A stretch of DNA of 64,000 nt from Archangium sp. (lineage in GTDB: Bacteria; Myxococcota; Myxococcia; Myxococcales; Myxococcaceae). Both the position numbers and the translations under genes were made by a program. Shown here in pieces: positions 52,803-61,106 of the stretch. The stretch covers positions 1 to 64,000 of the forward strand of contig JALHMW010000005.1 of assembly GCA_022843845.1 (NCBI GenBank), in the 5' to 3' direction. Position 1 is the stretch's first letter; each line of letters starts with the position of its first letter. Under the pieces are notes generated by a model. It was not told the DNA's origin. It worked only from the letters and a program-made list of their open reading frames with translations, and searched no databases.

Positions 52803-54428
52803 TCAGTTCTCGCGCAGCTCTTCTGCGATGCGGTCGACCGCGACCTGGAGTTGCTCGAGCTCGTCGGGCGAGTTGGCGGTGTCGAGCCGGCTGCGCACCA
52901 TCGTGAGCTGACGCTCGAGCAACTGCACGTCGAGGCCACCCTTCTTCGCCCTGGCGACGCCGCGATCGAGGAGCCTGACTTTGTCCTGGAGCCGCTGCCG
53001 CGGAGTCAGGCGCTTCTGCGCATCGGCCTTCGCGTCGGTCGTCGGCTCCACCGGCTTCGCCTCCACCACGGGCGTTGGCTCAACCGGGGGCTGGGGCTCC
53101 GCAACCGAGGTTGGGGTCGGGTGGGAAGCCACGGGCTCTGGCTGCGCCACCTGAAGCGGGGCGACTGCAGCGACCGCGGGGAGGGCTTCCGTCGAGCCTC
53201 TCGCGACCCAGGCGACCGCCGCCACGACGACGGCCCCCAGCAACCCCAGCACGGCGAGCGGCGCCCGGCTCTTCTTGACGGACTGGGCGAGGTCGGCGGT
53301 CGGCGGCCCGCGCGACGCCAATGCAGCCACCGGAGTCGCAACGGGCGGAGCGATGACGTCCGGCACCTCACTCGCGAGCGTGCGGGCACGCGCCGCGACG
53401 TCAGGCGCGAGGACGCCGGTCCCATTCACCGCAGGCGGCACGCCCGGCTCGGGGGTCCTCGCCTTCACGAAGGTCTGCTCGAGCGGCTGCATGGGGTCGA
53501 ATGGCGCGATGGGCTCGTCAATGGTCTTCAGCGCCGAGGGATCAGAGACCGCGACCCTCAGGCGCGCAAGCTCGCGCCGCAGCTCGTCGGCCGAGCCGTG
53601 CCGCTCATGACTTCGCTTCGAGAGCAGTCGCATGATGATGGCGTCGAGCGTTCCCGGGAGCGAGGGGTTGCGCGACGACGGCGTGGGAATGGGGGCCTCG
53701 AGGTGCTGGTAGATGACGCGCACCGCGTTGTCGCCGGTGTAGGGCAGTGAGCCGGTGACGAGCTCGAAGAGAATGACGCCCATCGCGTAGAGGTCGAGGG
53801 CCGGCCCGACCGATTCCCCGCGTGCCTGCTCGGGCGCCATGTACGACGGCGTCCCCAACACGACGCTGGCCTTGGTTTCCTGCACGACCCCCATCTTGGC
53901 GATGCCGAAGTCGAGCAGCTTCACGTGCTGCTCCCCTGTCGGGGTGCGGCACAGGAAGATGTTCGAGGGCTTCAGGTCTCGGTGAATGACGCCCGCCTGG
54001 TGTGCGGCGGAGAGCGCGCTGAGCACCTCATCGGCGATCTGCAAGACGTCGGGCAGCAACAGCGTTCGCCCCTGGGCGCGCGCCTCGCTGAGCGCGTCCT
54101 CGAGGGAGCGCCCCTCGAGGTACTCCATGATGATGGCCTGCCGACCGTCGGGCAGCTTCGCAGAGCCAAAGATGTCGACGATGCCCCGGTGGCGAATCGC
54201 GTTGACCGCGCGCGCCTCGGCGATGAGGCGCTGCACGATGTCGGCAGACTCGCCGATGTCCGCTTTGATGACCTTGATGGCGACGCGCTTGCCGATCTCC
54301 GTCTGCACGCCGGAATAGACGAGGCCCATGCCCCCTTCCCCGATGCGCGCCTCGATGACGTAGCCGGCGAGGGTGAGCCCTACGACGGGGTCCACGGCAG
54401 GAACCTGAGCAGTCACCCCACGGAGCAT
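52803..54428 (-). CDS. Membrane-anchored eukaryotic-type Ser/Thr protein kinase
   Basis: The 541-aa protein has an N-terminal Hanks-type kinase domain: Gly loop IGEGGMGLVY, Lys52 in VAIKVIK, HRDLKPSN (149-151) and DFG (173-175), and APEQARG. All catalytic residues are intact, so it should be active. A ~100-residue Pro/Ala linker leads to one transmembrane helix near 390-412 (VLGLLGAVVVAAVAWVA). The extracytoplasmic part is Pro-rich then a C-terminal coiled coil. Myxobacterial kinases of this type regulate development and secretion. It converges on the surface-protein genes with 28 bases between ends. Confidence 0.9.
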   Translation of the reverse strand: MLRGVTAQVPAVDPVVGLTLAGYVIEARIGEGGMGLVYSGVQTEIGKRVAIKVIKADIGESADIVQRLIAEARAVNAIRHRGIVDIFGSAKLPDGRQAIIMEYLEGRSLEDALSEARAQGRTLLLPDVLQIADEVLSALSAAHQAGVIHRDLKPSNIFLCRTPTGEQHVKLLDFGIAKMGVVQETKASVVLGTPSYMAPEQARGESVGPALDLYAMGVILFELVTGSLPYTGDNAVRVIYQHLEAPIPTPSSRNPSLPGTLDAIIMRLLSKRSHERHGSADELRRELARLRVAVSDPSALKTIDEPIAPFDPMQPLEQTFVKARTPEPGVPPAVNGTGVLAPDVAARARTLASEVPDVIAPPVATPVAALASRGPPTADLAQSVKKSRAPLAVLGLLGAVVVAAVAWVARGSTEALPAVAAVAPLQVAQPEPVASHPTPTSVAEPQPPVEPTPVVEAKPVEPTTDAKADAQKRLTPRQRLQDKVRLLDRGVARAKKGGLDVQLLERQLTMVRSRLDTANSPDELEQLQVAVDRIAEELREN

Positions 54429-54891: not shown

Positions 54892-56013
54892 TCACATGGA
54901 GCAGGTGCCGAAGCCCGTGGCCATGTTGTTCTGGCACTGGCCAGCGCCGCAGCTGGGCATGCCACCGTCCACATTACAGAACGCGCGGCAGATTCCAGAC
55001 TGGCCACCGGCAGCCGCTGCGACGCACTGCAGACCGCGCGCGCAGAAGGCCGAGGTCGTGCACGCTCCACCAGACATCACCGTGCCGCCCGACTGACAGA
55101 CCGGAGTTCCAGCGACGCCCAACTGGCAGGCCTCGGTCGCCTGGCAGGGCGACTGATCGAAGGGGTTGCACGGCGTCACCGCCGAGCAGACGGCGTGGAG
55201 CTCACTGGCTCCGCCCTGCATCGCGGCGAACTGCACGCCTGTGTTGCACTCAGAACCAGGGCTACACATGTTGATCGGTCCGCAGAAGCGGCGGCAGGTC
55301 GCCGTTCCACCGCCAACGAACCCGACGCACTGCGCGCCCCGCTGACACGAATCAGGAACCGCCTGCTGGCAAGGCGCGTTGTCGGCCGTTCCACCGTCCC
55401 CAAGGCCGAACGGCGTGCAGACCCGCTCAACGCCACCATCGCCCACAGGAATGATCATGCACTTGGTGTTTGCCCCAGCGCAGTCCTGGGCGAGCACGCT
55501 ACAGGCCCCGGGGATACAGGTGCCCGCGAAACCGTTGATGCTAGTGCGCACGCATTCGGAACCGGCTGGGCAGATCGGGTCGGTGATGATGTCGCAGGGC
55601 TCACGAACGACAGCACCGCCGCCGGTGCCCATCGTTCCACCCGCAGTCCCGCCGCCCGTGCTCGACGTTCCACCACCCGTGCTCGACGTTCCACCACCCG
55701 TGGACGACGTGCCGCCGCCAGTGCCCGACGTGCCACCACCAGTTCCCGACGTGCCGCCGCCCGTCGCGACCGAGCCGATGCACGACTTCGTGGTCGTGTT
55801 GCAGGTCTGGCTCGCCGCCGAGCAGTTCGTGCACGCGTTTCCCGAGCTGCCGCACGCCGCGTCCGTCAGCTTGTCAGGAGCGACACAGGTTCCAGCGTTG
55901 CAGCAGCCGGTACAGTTGTTCGGGCCGCAGTTGCTCGCGGGAGTTCCACAGGAGGGGACCGTCGCCAGGATGAAGCCGAGAAGGGCCCCGAGAGAAAGCG
56001 CCTTGAATTTCAT
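54892..56013 (-). CDS. Cys-rich lipoprotein with TGGGTSS repeats
   Basis: The 373-aa product has a GGAG ribosome-binding site and a lipobox (GFILATVPSC). A Cys-rich N-terminal part (NCGPNNCTGCCNAGTC) is followed by a low-complexity linker of repeated Gly-Gly-Gly-Thr-Ser units, then ~200 residues of Cys-rich modules (CPAGSECVRTSINGFAGTC, CSPGSECNTG). Pairs of Cys at regular spacing suggest disulfide-bonded EGF-like or Kazal-like modules. Myxobacteria have many such surface lipoproteins; no enzyme motif appears. Confidence 0.75.
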   Translation of the reverse strand: MKFKALSLGALLGFILATVPSCGTPASNCGPNNCTGCCNAGTCVAPDKLTDAACGSSGNACTNCSAASQTCNTTTKSCIGSVATGGGTSGTGGGTSGTGGGTSSTGGGTSSTGGGTSSTGGGTAGGTMGTGGGAVVREPCDIITDPICPAGSECVRTSINGFAGTCIPGACSVLAQDCAGANTKCMIIPVGDGGVERVCTPFGLGDGGTADNAPCQQAVPDSCQRGAQCVGFVGGGTATCRRFCGPINMCSPGSECNTGVQFAAMQGGASELHAVCSAVTPCNPFDQSPCQATEACQLGVAGTPVCQSGGTVMSGGACTTSAFCARGLQCVAAAAGGQSGICRAFCNVDGGMPSCGAGQCQNNMATGFGTCSM

Positions 56014-56127
56014 GAGGAACTCCAGATGAGCACGACCGGTCCGGCCCGGGCGTGAAGCGCGCGCACCCAAACTCACACTGATGCACACGTCAAGCGACGC
56101 GACTGACGGACCGCGGCAGCGATCGAT

Positions 56128-56649
56128 TCAGCCGCCGTCCTTCGAGCCCACCAGGTACTGGAGCCCTCTGGGCTTCTCGAGACTGCATGAGGCCACCGCC
56201 GCGGAAGGATCGATCGCGTCGCTGCCCTCCTGAATCGCCAACACCTTCCGACCCGCGCCGATCACGAACGAGACGCGCTTCGCGATGGTGATGAGCGGGT
56301 ACTTCACGTCGTAGGCCTTCATGAGCACGCCGTCGCGATCGCTCACGAAGGGGAACGGGGCCTTCAGGCTCTCTTTGAACTTGAGCGAGTTGGCGCCGTC
56401 ATCGCCCGACACCGCGATCACCGTTCCGTGGTTCTTCTCGATGTCGGCATACCGGTCCCGGTACGCGGTGAACTCGCGTGTTCAGCCAGGGGTGAACGCT
56501 TTGGGGAAGAAGGCCACCACCACGGGGCCGCGCTCCACCAGCTTCGACAGCGTCAGCTCGCGACCGTCGACGTCCTTCACCGTGAAGTCTGGCGCCACGT
56601 CTCCCACGACGGGCGACGCAGCGAGCACGACGAGCGCGACGGTCAACAT
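56128..56649 (-). CDS. Exported selenocysteine-containing peroxiredoxin (AhpC/TSA-BCP type), UGA read as Sec
   Basis: Reading through one in-frame TGA at 56484-56482 gives a 173-residue protein with an intact thioredoxin fold. It begins with a signal-like [16 protein letters not shown], then [21 protein letters not shown] and [18 protein letters not shown], where peroxiredoxins have FTPGCTxE. The UGA thus replaces the peroxidatic cysteine (position 56). Downstream the sequence continues as [15 protein letters not shown] and ISFVIG-like strands without any frame break. A SECIS-like hairpin follows the UGA. A late Cys ([10 protein letters not shown]) could act in resolution. Without readthrough the two halves (residues 1-55 and 57-173) make no sense. 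Alternatives are a point mutation or sequencing error. Confidence 0.85.
56447..56466 (-). promoter_or_regulatory. Candidate SECIS hairpin in the peroxiredoxin mRNA
   Basis: Fifteen bases after the UGA the mRNA can form a seven-pair stem, GCGUACC with GGUAUGC (one G-U), around a six-base loop GGGACC. The loop begins 22 bases after the UGA and opens with G residues, as in bacterial SECIS elements that recruit SelB within ~16-37 bases of the UGA. Confidence 0.65.
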
Positions 56650-56693
56650 GCCGATGAGCTAACCGCAGCCTTCAGACGACGCCACTCGCACTG

Positions 56694-57962
56694 TCAACGA
56701 GGCAGGCGCGCCCAGACCGCTGCGGCGGCTTCCCGGCTGGCACGCGCGAGCTCGGCCACGTCGACCGACAGCGGCTTGCGCTTCCACAACCGCCACATGC
56801 CATCGACCATCACCGACTCGACGTGCTGCGAGGCCATGCCGTGGAGCAGGTGCGATGACAGCGACTCCGAGGTGAGCGGCGTCGGCGGCTGGTAGTCGAG
56901 CACCACGAGATCGGCGACGGCCTCTTCCCGCAGCGGCCCGATCGTCTGGCCGAAGGCGGCCGACGCGAGGCGATGGCCGTTGGCGATGAAGCGCAAGATG
57001 TCGATGGGTTGACCCGCGTCGCGGGTGCGCAACGACGCCACCTGCGCCTCGGCGAGCGTATCGAGGCTCATCACGTCGGTCCCCAGACACGCCCGGACGC
57101 CGAACTTCGAAGGCGTCGCCAGGCCCGTCTGACCGTTCATGTTGCTCCGGCCCGCGTGCACCACCCACGCGCCGCGCATGAGGAGCTCGGACAGCTGCGG
57201 CCACGAGAAGTGCACCGCTTGAGAGATGACCGTCTTCTCGCCGATGAGCTCTTTGGCGAACAACCGCTCGAGCGGAGCCGCCCCGAAGCGCTCGAGGCTC
57301 TGGGTCTCTTCGCGAGGGTCTTCGGCGACGTTGATCAAGCTCAGCGCACCGGTGCCGGTCGCGATCGCCTTCACCGCCGCGAGCGCCTCGTCGGAGGTGT
57401 CGCCCAGATGTGCGAGCCCGACGGCGCCACGGAACCGTCCCCGCGCCCGGCTGATGAAGCCGGTGACTTCTTCGAGCGCTTCTTCCCGGCTCACGATCCC
57501 CGCGCGATCGGAGATCTCGTAGGCGAGGACGCCGCGGATCCCCGTGTCGTTGAGCCCATGCGCCAGCCGGCCCATCGAGCCCGGCACCACCTTCGGTGAG
57601 GCATGCAGCGCGAAGACGGTCGTCGTTCCCGCGCACAGACCTTCGAGCCCACCCACCGCGGCCGCCGCCTGCACGTCGTCGAGGCTGAGCGCGGTTTCGA
57701 GCTGCTCGAGCAGCGCCAGGCTGTCGATGAAGCCACTGCTGCGAGGGAGCCCGCGCGCGAGGCCCGCGTGGAGGTGGTGATGGGCGCTGACCAGCCCCGG
57801 CATCACGAGCCGACCGCCCAGCTCGGTCACCTCCTCGGAGGGAAGGGGCTCGAGCGATGCGCCGCGCGCGACGATCTTTCCCTTGTCGACGCGGAGGTCA
57901 GCGCGCTCGACCGACGGCGGCTCGATCTCGATCAGCGTGGCGCCTTTGAGGAGCGTCGTCAC
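56694..57962 (-). CDS. SsnA-like amidohydrolase with altered metal-ligand positions
   Basis: The 422-aa protein follows the SsnA/chlorohydrolase amidohydrolase pattern: RLVMPGLVSAHHHLHAGLARG with the His-x-His pair, GRSNMNGQTG, CLGTDVMSLD with the catalytic Asp, and DYQPPTPLTSESLSSHLLHGM. Two positions usually His in SsnA differ: the segment normally His-x-Ala-Glu-Asp reads LINVAEDP, and the usual VAHG reads VISQAVH. The metal site may be altered or the enzyme inactive. SsnA in other bacteria lies in selenium-related gene clusters. The start is GTG at 57962. The selenocysteine peroxiredoxin follows after 44 bases on the same strand. Confidence 0.75.
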   Translation of the reverse strand: MTTLLKGATLIEIEPPSVERADLRVDKGKIVARGASLEPLPSEEVTELGGRLVMPGLVSAHHHLHAGLARGLPRSSGFIDSLALLEQLETALSLDDVQAAAAVGGLEGLCAGTTTVFALHASPKVVPGSMGRLAHGLNDTGIRGVLAYEISDRAGIVSREEALEEVTGFISRARGRFRGAVGLAHLGDTSDEALAAVKAIATGTGALSLINVAEDPREETQSLERFGAAPLERLFAKELIGEKTVISQAVHFSWPQLSELLMRGAWVVHAGRSNMNGQTGLATPSKFGVRACLGTDVMSLDTLAEAQVASLRTRDAGQPIDILRFIANGHRLASAAFGQTIGPLREEAVADLVVLDYQPPTPLTSESLSSHLLHGMASQHVESVMVDGMWRLWKRKPLSVDVAELARASREAAAAVWARLPR

Positions 57963-58218
57963 AGGGCGCGCGAGGCTAGCGCCAGAACTGCTCGAGGCCC
58001 CGCCAAAAGAACCGTCATGACATCTGACAGTGATGGACCTGGCGGCTGGAGCACGGACTGTCCCGATCCCAGTCAGATCAGGACGATGGTGTCGGAACCC
58101 TCGTCCGGAACCCCGCACAACCTACCGGATTCAGGAACGAAACACCGGGGCACACACCTTGCTCAGGGCGCGCACCAGTACGCACACGCAGTGAGTGGCA
58201 GCATAGGGAGCAGTCGAC

Positions 58219-59664
58219 ATGAAGGTTCGAGTCCTCTCCACGGTGTTGGCCGGCGCCGTCTTCGGGAGTGCATGCGGCCCGGTCGAACTCCCGCCAGGCG
58301 CTGAAATCGCCGAGCAGCAGTCACAGCAGATCATCGGCGGCACCGTGGCCATGGGTGACCCGGCGGTCGTCGCGCTCGTGGTCGGCTTCGGCGGCCGCTA
58401 CTCGAGCTACTGCACTGGCTCCCTCATCGGGCCGAAGACGGTGTTGACGGCGGCGCACTGCATCTACGCGCAGGGCCAGAACGCGCCGTACTCGGTCGCG
58501 TTCGGCACCTCCGCGGCGAGTCCGACCTCGGTCGTTCGCGTGGTGGGGCAGACGCGCCACCCGATGTACACGGGCCAGAGCAACGACTTCGGTCTGCTGC
58601 AGCTCGAGCGCGCGGTGGTCACTGTTCCCCTCCTGCGCATGAACGACTCGCCGATGGTGAGCTCGCTCCTCGGCATCCCCGTGCGTCACTCCGGCTTCGG
58701 CGTGACGGACGGCCGGACCCAGAGCGGCGGCGGCACCAAGCGAGAGGTCAGCACCCCGCTCCGCCGCATCATGTCCACCAGCTTCGAGTCGGGCGGCATG
58801 GGCAAGCAGACGTGTCAGGGCGACTCGGGCGGGCCCGGCTTCATGGTGTTCCCCGGAGAGACCACGGAGCGGCTGGTCGGCGTCGTGAGCTACGGCGATC
58901 AAGCCTGCCAGCAGTTCGGCGTCGACATGCGCGTCGACACCCAGCTCCCCTGGATTCGTCAGACGATGGGCCGCTGGGAAGAGCCGACCTGCGAGCTCGA
59001 CGGGTTGTGCAAGCCGGGCTGCGAGGTCGTCGATCAAGACTGCGCGTGCGCGACCGATGGCCAGTGCACCGCCGAGTGCATCAATCTGTCGACCGACACC
59101 GACTGCCCGAAGGACTGTGGCCCCAACGCGATCTGCTCCATCAACGAGTGCCCCCGCCCCGACCCAGACTGCGTCACCGAAGGTGGGCTCTGTTCAGCCG
59201 AGACCCAGTGCCGCGGCCGCAAGTGCGTGAACGACGCGCAGAACACCGACACGTATTGCAGCCGCGTGTGCACTCAGAAGGCCGACTGCCCTGCCTCGAT
59301 GGAGTGCAACGGCGGTGTGTGCCGCGTGCCCCCGCGCCCGGAGCGACGGCTCCTCGACTCGTGCACGGCCCTGATCGACTTCTGCCTCACCAGCACCTGC
59401 AACGGCCCGCAGAACGGCATCACGCGCTGTGTGATTCCGTGCAGCGTGACGGCCGACTGCGGCGACGGCTCCGCATGTGAAGGCGGCACCATGGGCGGCC
59501 GGTATTGCCGGCCCTTCAACGTCGACTTCATGCCGAAGACCCTGCCCGGTGTGCAGCCGGGCCTGGGCGTGGCGGCGAAGGGCTGCTCGGCAGCGCCCGG
59601 TGGACTGTGGGCAGCGCTCGTGCTGATGGTCCCGATGTTCCGTCGTCGCCGGGTCTCCTCATGA
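58219..59664 (+). CDS. Trypsin-like serine protease with Cys-rich domain and MYXO-CTERM-like tail (1)
   Basis: The 481-aa product starts with a lipoprotein-like signal (AGAVFGSAC) and a chymotrypsin-fold domain that begins at IIGGTVAMGD. The triad is visible: His80 in LTAAHCIY, Asp123 in SNDFGLLQL and Ser202 in QGDSGGP, so it should be active. From about residue 250 a Cys-rich region with CAC, DPDC and SCTALIDFC modules follows. The C-terminus reads KGCSAAPGGLWAALVLMVPMFRRRRVSS, a Cys then a hydrophobic helix and Arg cluster typical of MYXO-CTERM sorting. Its stop overlaps the second protease start (ATGA). Confidence 0.85.
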   Translation: MKVRVLSTVLAGAVFGSACGPVELPPGAEIAEQQSQQIIGGTVAMGDPAVVALVVGFGGRYSSYCTGSLIGPKTVLTAAHCIYAQGQNAPYSVAFGTSAASPTSVVRVVGQTRHPMYTGQSNDFGLLQLERAVVTVPLLRMNDSPMVSSLLGIPVRHSGFGVTDGRTQSGGGTKREVSTPLRRIMSTSFESGGMGKQTCQGDSGGPGFMVFPGETTERLVGVVSYGDQACQQFGVDMRVDTQLPWIRQTMGRWEEPTCELDGLCKPGCEVVDQDCACATDGQCTAECINLSTDTDCPKDCGPNAICSINECPRPDPDCVTEGGLCSAETQCRGRKCVNDAQNTDTYCSRVCTQKADCPASMECNGGVCRVPPRPERRLLDSCTALIDFCLTSTCNGPQNGITRCVIPCSVTADCGDGSACEGGTMGGRYCRPFNVDFMPKTLPGVQPGLGVAAKGCSAAPGGLWAALVLMVPMFRRRRVSS

Positions 59665-61106
59665 ACCTTCGTCTCTTCGTTTCACTCGTCGTCGTCGGTG
59701 CCCTGCTGGGTTGCGGGCTCGATGACGGCGTCACCTCCGAAGCCACTCCCGTCGAGTCCCAGCGCGGGGCGATCGTCGGTGGCACCGTCGCGCCCACGAC
59801 TGACAACAACGTCTTTCAGCTGATCATGACGGAGACGAGCGGGCAGATGGGCATCTGCAGCGCCACGCTCATCGGCTCGCGCACGCTCCTCACCGCGGCC
59901 CACTGCATCGACACCGCCCGCTCCGTGCTGGCGCACAACGCGCCGTCCGACACGCAGATCCAGTTTGGCGTGAACACCTACCGGGCGCTGCGATGGAACA
60001 CGCACCCGAACTGGAACCCCAACGGGCAGGATCTTCGCAACGACATCGCGATCATTCTCCTCGAGCGCGCGCCGACGAACGTGAACCCGAAGCCGTGGAA
60101 CAACCAGACGATGCAGGGCACACAAGGGCGGCCGATTCGGGCGCTCGGCTACGGCAACACCTCTCCGGGGAATGGCAGCGGCACCCGGCGGCAGGTCATG
60201 CTGACGGTCGCCCAGCTCACCACGCAGCTCATCTTCATGGGCGACAACCAGTCGAAGGGCATCTGCCAGGGCGACTCCGGCGGCCCGACCTTCTACACGT
60301 TCCCCGATGGCGTCGAGCGGCAGGTCGGCGTGCACAGCTTCACCACCTCACAGACTTGCACCTACGGCGCCGACGCGCGCGTCGACGCGTTCGCTTCGTT
60401 CATTCAGATGTACCTGTCGATGTACGAGGCGCCGTCGTGCGATCGCGACGGCCGCTGCGCCACCAACTGCGCGATGCCTGACTTCGACTGCGTCTGCGCG
60501 AAGGACAACATCTGCAGCTCGGTGTGCCTGATGCTCCAGGGAGGCGTCGATCCCGACTGTCCCGACTGCGGCCCCAACGGCCTGTGCGCGACGACGACCT
60601 GTGGCGAACCCGACCCTGACTGCGTCACCGAGGGCCAGGCCTGCACCATGGCGACCCAGTGCATCAACCGCGAGTGCCGCAACGATCCACAGAACCTGCA
60701 GCCGTACTGCACGCGGGCCTGCACGGCGCCCAGCGACTGCACGACGGGCTTCGAGTGCACGGGCGGCTTCTGCATCAAGAAGCAGCTGCCGGTGCTCGGC
60801 GCCGGAGCCTTCTGCCGCATCGGCCAGAACTACTGCAGCATGGACACGGTGTGCACGGGCGCGACCGAAGGCGACTCGATCTGCCAGCTCACCTGCCGCA
60901 ACATGGGCGACTGCCCGGCGAACTTCGCGTGCGCGAACGGGTGGAACGGGTTCCGCTACTGCCAGGAGCCGCCCAAGCCGCAGATCCTGCTCCCGAAGGC
61001 CTCGATCGCCGGCCCCGTCGCGCAGACGGGCTGCAGCAGCCTCGGCGGCCTCTCGCTGCTCTCGCTCCTCGGGTTGTTGAGCCTGCGACGCCGCTCGGTT
61101 CGCTGA
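59661..61106 (+). CDS. Trypsin-like serine protease with Cys-rich domain and MYXO-CTERM-like tail (2)
   Basis: The 481-aa paralogue has a lipoprotein signal (LVVVGALLGC) and the protease domain begins at AIVGGTVAP. Triad residues are His81 (LTAAHCID), Asp128 (RNDIAIILLE) and Ser206 (QGDSGGPT). The Cys-rich stalk repeats the same spacing as in the first gene (PDCPDCGPNGLC, DPDCVTEGQAC). The tail reads TGCSSLGGLSLLSLLGLLSLRRRS, again MYXO-CTERM-like. The pair is tandem with ATGA overlap, so they are co-expressed. Likely secreted, possibly predatory, proteases (inference). Confidence 0.87.
   Translation: MNLRLFVSLVVVGALLGCGLDDGVTSEATPVESQRGAIVGGTVAPTTDNNVFQLIMTETSGQMGICSATLIGSRTLLTAAHCIDTARSVLAHNAPSDTQIQFGVNTYRALRWNTHPNWNPNGQDLRNDIAIILLERAPTNVNPKPWNNQTMQGTQGRPIRALGYGNTSPGNGSGTRRQVMLTVAQLTTQLIFMGDNQSKGICQGDSGGPTFYTFPDGVERQVGVHSFTTSQTCTYGADARVDAFASFIQMYLSMYEAPSCDRDGRCATNCAMPDFDCVCAKDNICSSVCLMLQGGVDPDCPDCGPNGLCATTTCGEPDPDCVTEGQACTMATQCINRECRNDPQNLQPYCTRACTAPSDCTTGFECTGGFCIKKQLPVLGAGAFCRIGQNYCSMDTVCTGATEGDSICQLTCRNMGDCPANFACANGWNGFRYCQEPPKPQILLPKASIAGPVAQTGCSSLGGLSLLSLLGLLSLRRRSVR

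Follow-up and report, generated by a model that had tools for sequence, protein, structure and literature searches.

Selenocysteine (Sec) peroxiredoxins with a TxxU site, assigned to COG1225/PF00578, have been described in several papers (PMC1794560, PMC9312934, PMC13188914, PMC1914089), one of which, a 2006 survey, lists three such proteins for Anaeromyxobacter dehalogenans (PMC1794560). According to that survey, Sec peroxiredoxins of a myxobacterium are already in print, and the gene described here is no first report (PMC1794560). Literature searches returned no paper joining selenoprotein, peroxiredoxin and myxobacteria, nor one joining selenoprotein, peroxiredoxin and Acidobacteriota. The related PrxQ enzymes often hold their resolving cysteine five residues after the catalytic position (+5). 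The present gene adds a well-supported selenoprotein to those of myxobacteria; of greater interest are an invariant C-terminal cysteine that replaces the +5 cysteine, repeated switching between Sec and Cys, and a genus that keeps Sec decoding although its SelD was without a stop in 7/7 genomes and no formate dehydrogenase with a stop was found.

The window, by which we mean the whole stretch of 64,000 nucleotides that was analysed, belongs to contig C5 of an assembly (G000) of 4.95 Mb in 54 contigs that is 85.76% complete. It is placed among the myxobacteria because G022, which shares its family code, carries a gene segment identical with that of Citreicoccus inhibens, and because a Myxococcales bacterium supplied the closest named locus. 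On the minus strand, a single frame runs from the ATG at 56649 to a TGA stop at 56130-56128, and is interrupted by an in-frame TGA at 56484-56482 in the context TTC ACC CCT GGC TGA ACA CGC GAG (motif FTPGUTRE). An earlier reading made from the sequence only had noted that this TGA splits a peroxiredoxin at its catalytic cysteine, and this was confirmed: both halves share the frame, and the PF00578 (AhpC-TSA) profile matched the read-through product unbroken across the TGA (E = 4.8e-31, residues 15-136, profile positions 1-121 of 124). The TxxU motif was present as FTPGU, with UGA at the place of the peroxidatic Cys and Cys in homologues. Counting back from the peroxiredoxin ATG, the fourth codon in frame is TAG, and no Shine-Dalgarno-like match was found before this ATG. 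The mechanical list of open reading frames contained a 97-residue frame after the TGA; a standard gene caller would probably either truncate the protein at residue 55 or call a shorter gene after the stop.

Table 1. Features of the predicted selenocysteine peroxiredoxin locus and its neighbours (positions in the window)
Feature	Position	Strand	Basis or remark
Upstream amidohydrolase-like gene	56694..58118	-	Separated by 44 nt from the peroxiredoxin ATG; own start codon from the mechanical listing
Predicted Sec-containing peroxiredoxin CDS, 173 aa	56131..56649	-	Stop TGA 56130-56128; frame, PF00578, alignment, model, dN/dS
Hydrophobic N-terminus (14 residues, no Lys/Arg), possibly a short export signal	56608..56649	-	Sequence, hydropathy
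In-frame TGA, predicted Sec at residue 56, peroxidatic position	56482..56484	-	Among 110 loci examined, TGA in 43 and a Cys codon in 67
Putative SECIS hairpin, 8 pairs, loop GGAC	56447..56466	-	Starts 15 nt past the TGA; codon constraint, rule test, slid controls
Cys155 codon, candidate resolving cysteine	56185..56187	-	Invariant in 30/30 rows of alignment A1
Downstream cysteine-rich secreted or lipoprotein-like gene	54892..56013	-	Start ATG and description by eye

The protein was matched at E ≤ 0.001 in 57 of 60 genomes (its own included), many of these matches being other peroxiredoxins. Thirty loci read from this search, with the window's own as L020, carried TGA in 19 cases and a Cys codon in 11, and 80 named loci from a species collection (the best 80 of 420 confirmed) carried TGA in 24, TGC in 43 and TGT in 13. 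Collectively, all 110 loci examined had TGA (43) or a Cys codon (TGC or TGT, 67) at the aligned site, as the alignment proposed in the sequence-only reading was meant to reveal; TAA, TAG or another residue occurred in none of them. These loci are the best matches kept by the searches, with many of the Cys ones being more distant, PrxQ-type proteins; two of the 110 are duplicates of two others. TGA copies came from records titled Myxococcota, Acidobacteriota and Gemmatimonadota, plus one Chloroflexota. Substitution rates after the TGA were 0.031 (dN) versus 0.284 (dS) between the window and its nearest relative (L021), and dN was lower than dS on either side of the TGA in all five relatives compared, so that the sequence downstream of the TGA is, judged by these rates, under purifying selection. 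A recent nonsense mutation or a pseudogene, in which the TGA would be an ordinary premature stop, could appeal to the absence of SelB from the assembly (see below), but the stop is TGA and never TAA or TAG at one and the same codon across several phyla, and constraint persists past it in 5/5 comparisons. On comparative grounds this explanation is already contradicted by conservation, and we give it practically no credence.

Past the TGA lies the hairpin GCGTACCG GGAC CGGTATGC. The sequence-only reading had placed a hairpin 15 bases after the TGA with a loop starting in G, and both particulars held, whereas its count of seven pairs has to be raised to eight. Published rules for bacterial SECIS elements, as given in a 2026 review, specify a loop of 3-9 nt with G in the first two places, a stem of 4-16 bp, a distance of 16-37 nt from the UGA and a minimum free energy of at most -7.5 (PMC13188914). 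Scoring of the downstream RNA, likewise proposed earlier, put the window's hairpin within all of these ranges (stem of 8 bp, loop GGAC at 23 nt from the TGA, minimum free energy -11.3 kcal/mol). With the rules coded here for perfect stems only, 35/43 Sec loci passed versus 2/67 Cys loci among the 110 examined. By group, the passing Sec loci were 23/23 myxobacterial, 9/17 acidobacterial and 3/3 other, one of the last (L131) passing through a hairpin elsewhere; the eight Sec loci that failed were all acidobacterial.

When the register of the stem was fixed, seven or eight pairs were formed in 34/43 Sec versus 4/67 Cys loci, and when it was slid by 1-3 nt either way, in 0/43 Sec loci. Most acidobacterial copies had a different sequence at the same hairpin place with a 3-nt loop, and their hairpins displayed changes on both sides of a pair, for instance T-A for C-G at pair 6 and A-T for G-C at pair 8. 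Set against synonymous shuffles, folding energy was ordinary, with P = 0.29 in the window and 0.05-0.43 across 22 Sec copies, because the YRDRY peptide yields codons that are nearly palindromic when the DNA is GC-rich; constraint on codons and slid controls were therefore used in its place. The codon test covered 37 of the 39 myxobacterial rows L020-L049 and L078-L086, two duplicates being dropped. Arg64 was encoded by CGG in 22/22 Sec versus 3/15 Cys rows and Arg66 in 21/22 versus 4/15, compared with 37/133 for the remaining Arg codons of the Sec genes (Fisher p = 9.5e-18, relatedness ignored). The synonymous sites of the hairpin codons are thus frozen in Sec copies and not in Cys copies. An Rfam scan of 55500-57500 gave no match up to E = 1.

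Since the window comes from an incomplete assembly, a sequencing or assembly error in a Cys codon might be suspected. The seven closest loci of other genomes (L021-L027), however, all carried TGA as well, and in six of the seven the 21 nt of hairpin codons (+6 to +12) were identical to the window's, which leaves such an error hardly any probability.

The genes selA, selB, selC and selD, on which the sequence-only reading had made its interpretation depend, were recovered with one exception. The window's own genome contained tRNA-Sec (72.3 bits, anticodon TCA), SelA (567.2 bits) and SelD (384.6 bits), but no SelB over the cut-off was found in the 86%-complete assembly. Six SelB matches, all below the cut-off, were rejected, the best of them being an EF-Tu-like frame. 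One of these matches, on contig C2, is presumably LepA, and we take the others to be EF-Tu- and IF-2-like from their lengths. Of the 10 kb that surround selB in the nearest relative (G003), the window's assembly yielded only short matches (~200 nt at most), from which it follows that the whole block is absent there, as a gap in assembly or binning would give and as a true deletion could give too.

It might be argued that the gene encoded a selenoprotein until recently and that the strain, having lost SelB, now makes a truncated product only: SelB is the sole part of the machinery not found, and deletion and gap look the same in sequence alone. Against this, the assembly, at 4.95 Mb, falls short of the 7.4 to 9.8 Mb of six congeners, its missing selB block behaves as a gap would, SelB over the cut-off and tRNA-Sec were each present in 6/6 congeners, and tRNA-Sec, SelA and SelD are retained in the genome itself. 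We consider such a loss very improbable and infer that the strain has SelB. More widely, the 19 genomes with TGA copies (from the 30 loci read, the window's included) had tRNA-Sec in 16, SelB over the cut-off in 17 and SelD in 19; of the three without a tRNA-Sec match, one (G030) also lacked SelB over the cut-off. In G012 a second, weaker tRNA-Sec match also exceeded the cut-off.

With tRNA-Sec, SelA and SelD, homologues that carry TGA or Cys, and a hairpin that follows the SECIS rules, the sequence-only interpretation as a selenocysteine peroxiredoxin gained support, and the in-frame TGA is very probably decoded as Sec. We hold with high confidence, from these comparisons, that the product of the locus is a selenocysteine peroxiredoxin with the PrxQ/Bcp fold and SelB-dependent Sec at residue 56.

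The structural model of the read-through protein had a mean pLDDT of 90.9, and its best PDB match was Bcp (5epf, TM 0.87 by target), the closest structures being of the Bcp/PrxQ and AhpE types. It resembles PrxQ/Bcp proteins (PDB 5epf, 3drn, 3hjp) in fold and sequence profile, and differs from them in that a Cys codon at +5 from the catalytic residue was found in 0/37 myxobacterial rows, with a conserved Cys at 155 instead. The residue aligned to Cys155 was Cys in 21/24 Sec and 5/56 Cys rows (best 80 of 420 named loci); a structure alignment (A2) covered 48 of these 80 loci in addition to the window. On this pattern Cys155 is likely the resolving residue. In comparison with the described TxxU Sec peroxiredoxins, the TxxU site, the PF00578 domain and a bacterial SECIS directly past the UGA are shared, and Anaeromyxobacter rows L085 and L086 fall beside rows of the same order in the tree; the hydrophobic leader and the invariant C-terminal Cys may set the present protein apart. 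PrxU (NCBIfam NF040737), a family of peroxiredoxins with known Sec members, was rejected as its family (33 bits against the 270 needed), and a search of NCBIfam gave 16 weak matches, none above its own cut-off.

In the mechanism we propose, SelB and Sec-tRNA-Sec would bind the hairpin just past the UGA, leading to Sec at residue 56. The selenolate would then attack a hydroperoxide to give a selenenic acid, which Cys155 near the C-terminus would probably resolve as a selenenylsulfide, and this would in turn be reduced by a thiol partner. The protein would probably do this work at or outside the inner membrane.

The export signal that the sequence-only reading attributed to the protein fared less evenly: the N-terminus is indeed very hydrophobic over 14 residues (best 8-residue hydropathy mean 3.20) but contains neither Lys nor Arg. 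A UGA-Sec protein that stays in the cytosol, either because the N-terminus is no export signal or because translation starts further in, would be compatible with Sec at the site, and the missing basic residues together with the missing Shine-Dalgarno-like match before the window's ATG speak for it. On the other hand, most myxobacterial copies have a similar hydrophobic leader, preceded in L028 and L029 by a clear Shine-Dalgarno sequence, and the leaders of most acidobacterial Sec copies are longer and contain basic residues, in some cases (such as L088 and L089) an RR pair. By contrast, 35 of the 50 PrxQ-type Cys rows (L090-L157) start no more than 10 residues from the core, the start codons in this comparison having been picked by script. 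A cytosolic location is accordingly a serious, if somewhat doubtful, possibility, and export, as judged from leader sequences, appears plausible for the family and less certain for the window's protein. The RR pair of L088 and L089, which are Bryobacterales Sec peroxiredoxins, possibly indicates the twin-arginine route.

A tree was built from 58 of the 110 loci with the Sec/Cys site masked; it omits the two duplicates as well as 50 Cys rows, which for the most part are distant proteins of PrxQ type. On it the Sec/Cys label changed seven times, at least four of these changes being forced by well-supported branches; because of the rows left out, the older state (Sec or Cys) is not readable from this tree. 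Two myxobacterial Cys rows (L028, L029) keep five inner pairs of the hairpin and a third Cys row (L033) passes the SECIS rules, remnants which suggest Sec-to-Cys replacement in those rows. All 11 genomes with Cys copies (from the 30 loci read) had tRNA-Sec, so that the switch, if it took this direction, came about without prior loss of Sec decoding. For its peroxiredoxin family, the 2006 survey counts five Cys-to-Sec events and no Sec-to-Cys event (PMC1794560). If true, repeated Sec-to-Cys replacement would be added to a family for which that survey had counted only the opposite change (PMC1794560). Near relatives with Sec versus Cys at the same site, and with tRNA-Sec still present, also offer a natural comparison for the benefit of selenium to a peroxidase.

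In the same order, 50 genomes gave a SelD match and 29 of these carried an in-frame TGA in it, and among 13 SelD loci inspected eight had TGA, all at the catalytic place; FdnG-type formate dehydrogenase carried an in-frame TGA in 22/22 genomes with a match (place of the codon not inspected). The window's genus (seven genomes, G000-G006) had tRNA-Sec in 7/7, SelB in 6/7 and the Sec peroxiredoxin in 5/7. SelD was without a stop in 7/7, a Cys codon being seen in G000 and G005, and no FdnG-type enzyme was matched in the seven genomes at E up to 1e-100. Fdh-alpha exceeded the cut-off in four of the seven, without a stop in all four (codon not inspected). In the window's own genome, eight Fdh-alpha matches, all under the cut-off and without an internal stop, were rejected as a Sec form. 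These results point to a genus that retains Sec decoding and in which no Sec form was found of either selenoprotein regarded as sustaining it. Two of its members (G002, G004) have tRNA-Sec and SelB but no close peroxiredoxin copy, and by their gene content should have other selenoproteins.

According to the 2006 survey, Sec-decoding organisms that lack FdhA have Sec-SelD (PMC1794560). The genomes of this genus may be exceptions, with the provisos that the assemblies are fragmented, that the search covered these families only and that a Cys-type FdhA is perhaps not lacking. We tentatively suggest, with confidence a little short of even, that a Sec peroxiredoxin lineage common to Myxococcota and Acidobacteriota, mostly exported and equipped with a C-terminal resolving Cys, is among the clients that sustain Sec decoding in a genus with non-Sec SelD and formate dehydrogenases. 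Should this be true, and should a Cys-type FdhA be equated with absence of the enzyme, the survey's statement linking absence of FdhA to Sec-SelD would no longer hold (PMC1794560). Four further genomes of the same family (G020, G024, G034, G035) had tRNA-Sec and SelB, but a Cys-form peroxiredoxin, SelD without a stop and no formate dehydrogenase match within the limits used; they likely hold unknown selenoproteins.

Several genomes contained additional peroxiredoxin genes. One copy with a single TGA was accompanied by a close copy without a stop in G012 and G032, and G029 had two close copies with one TGA in each. More distant matches (~33-41% identity) with one TGA inside, its place not inspected, were seen in G043, G048, G051, G052, G058 and others, and are perhaps further Sec peroxiredoxin families. 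In a phage collection, nine records matched the peroxiredoxin, all at <60% identity.

Of the genes flanking the peroxiredoxin, the upstream one, which we take from its sequence to be an amidohydrolase, was matched in 9/21 loci tested, and the downstream cysteine-rich gene was matched beside the peroxiredoxin in 4/4 congeneric loci tested. Further out, two tandem trypsin-like proteases with cysteine-rich tails and a hydrophobic, basic C-terminus like a sorting tail were recognised by eye on the plus strand (58219-59664 and 59505-61106), and a serine/threonine protein kinase-like gene on the minus strand (52803-54428, also by eye).
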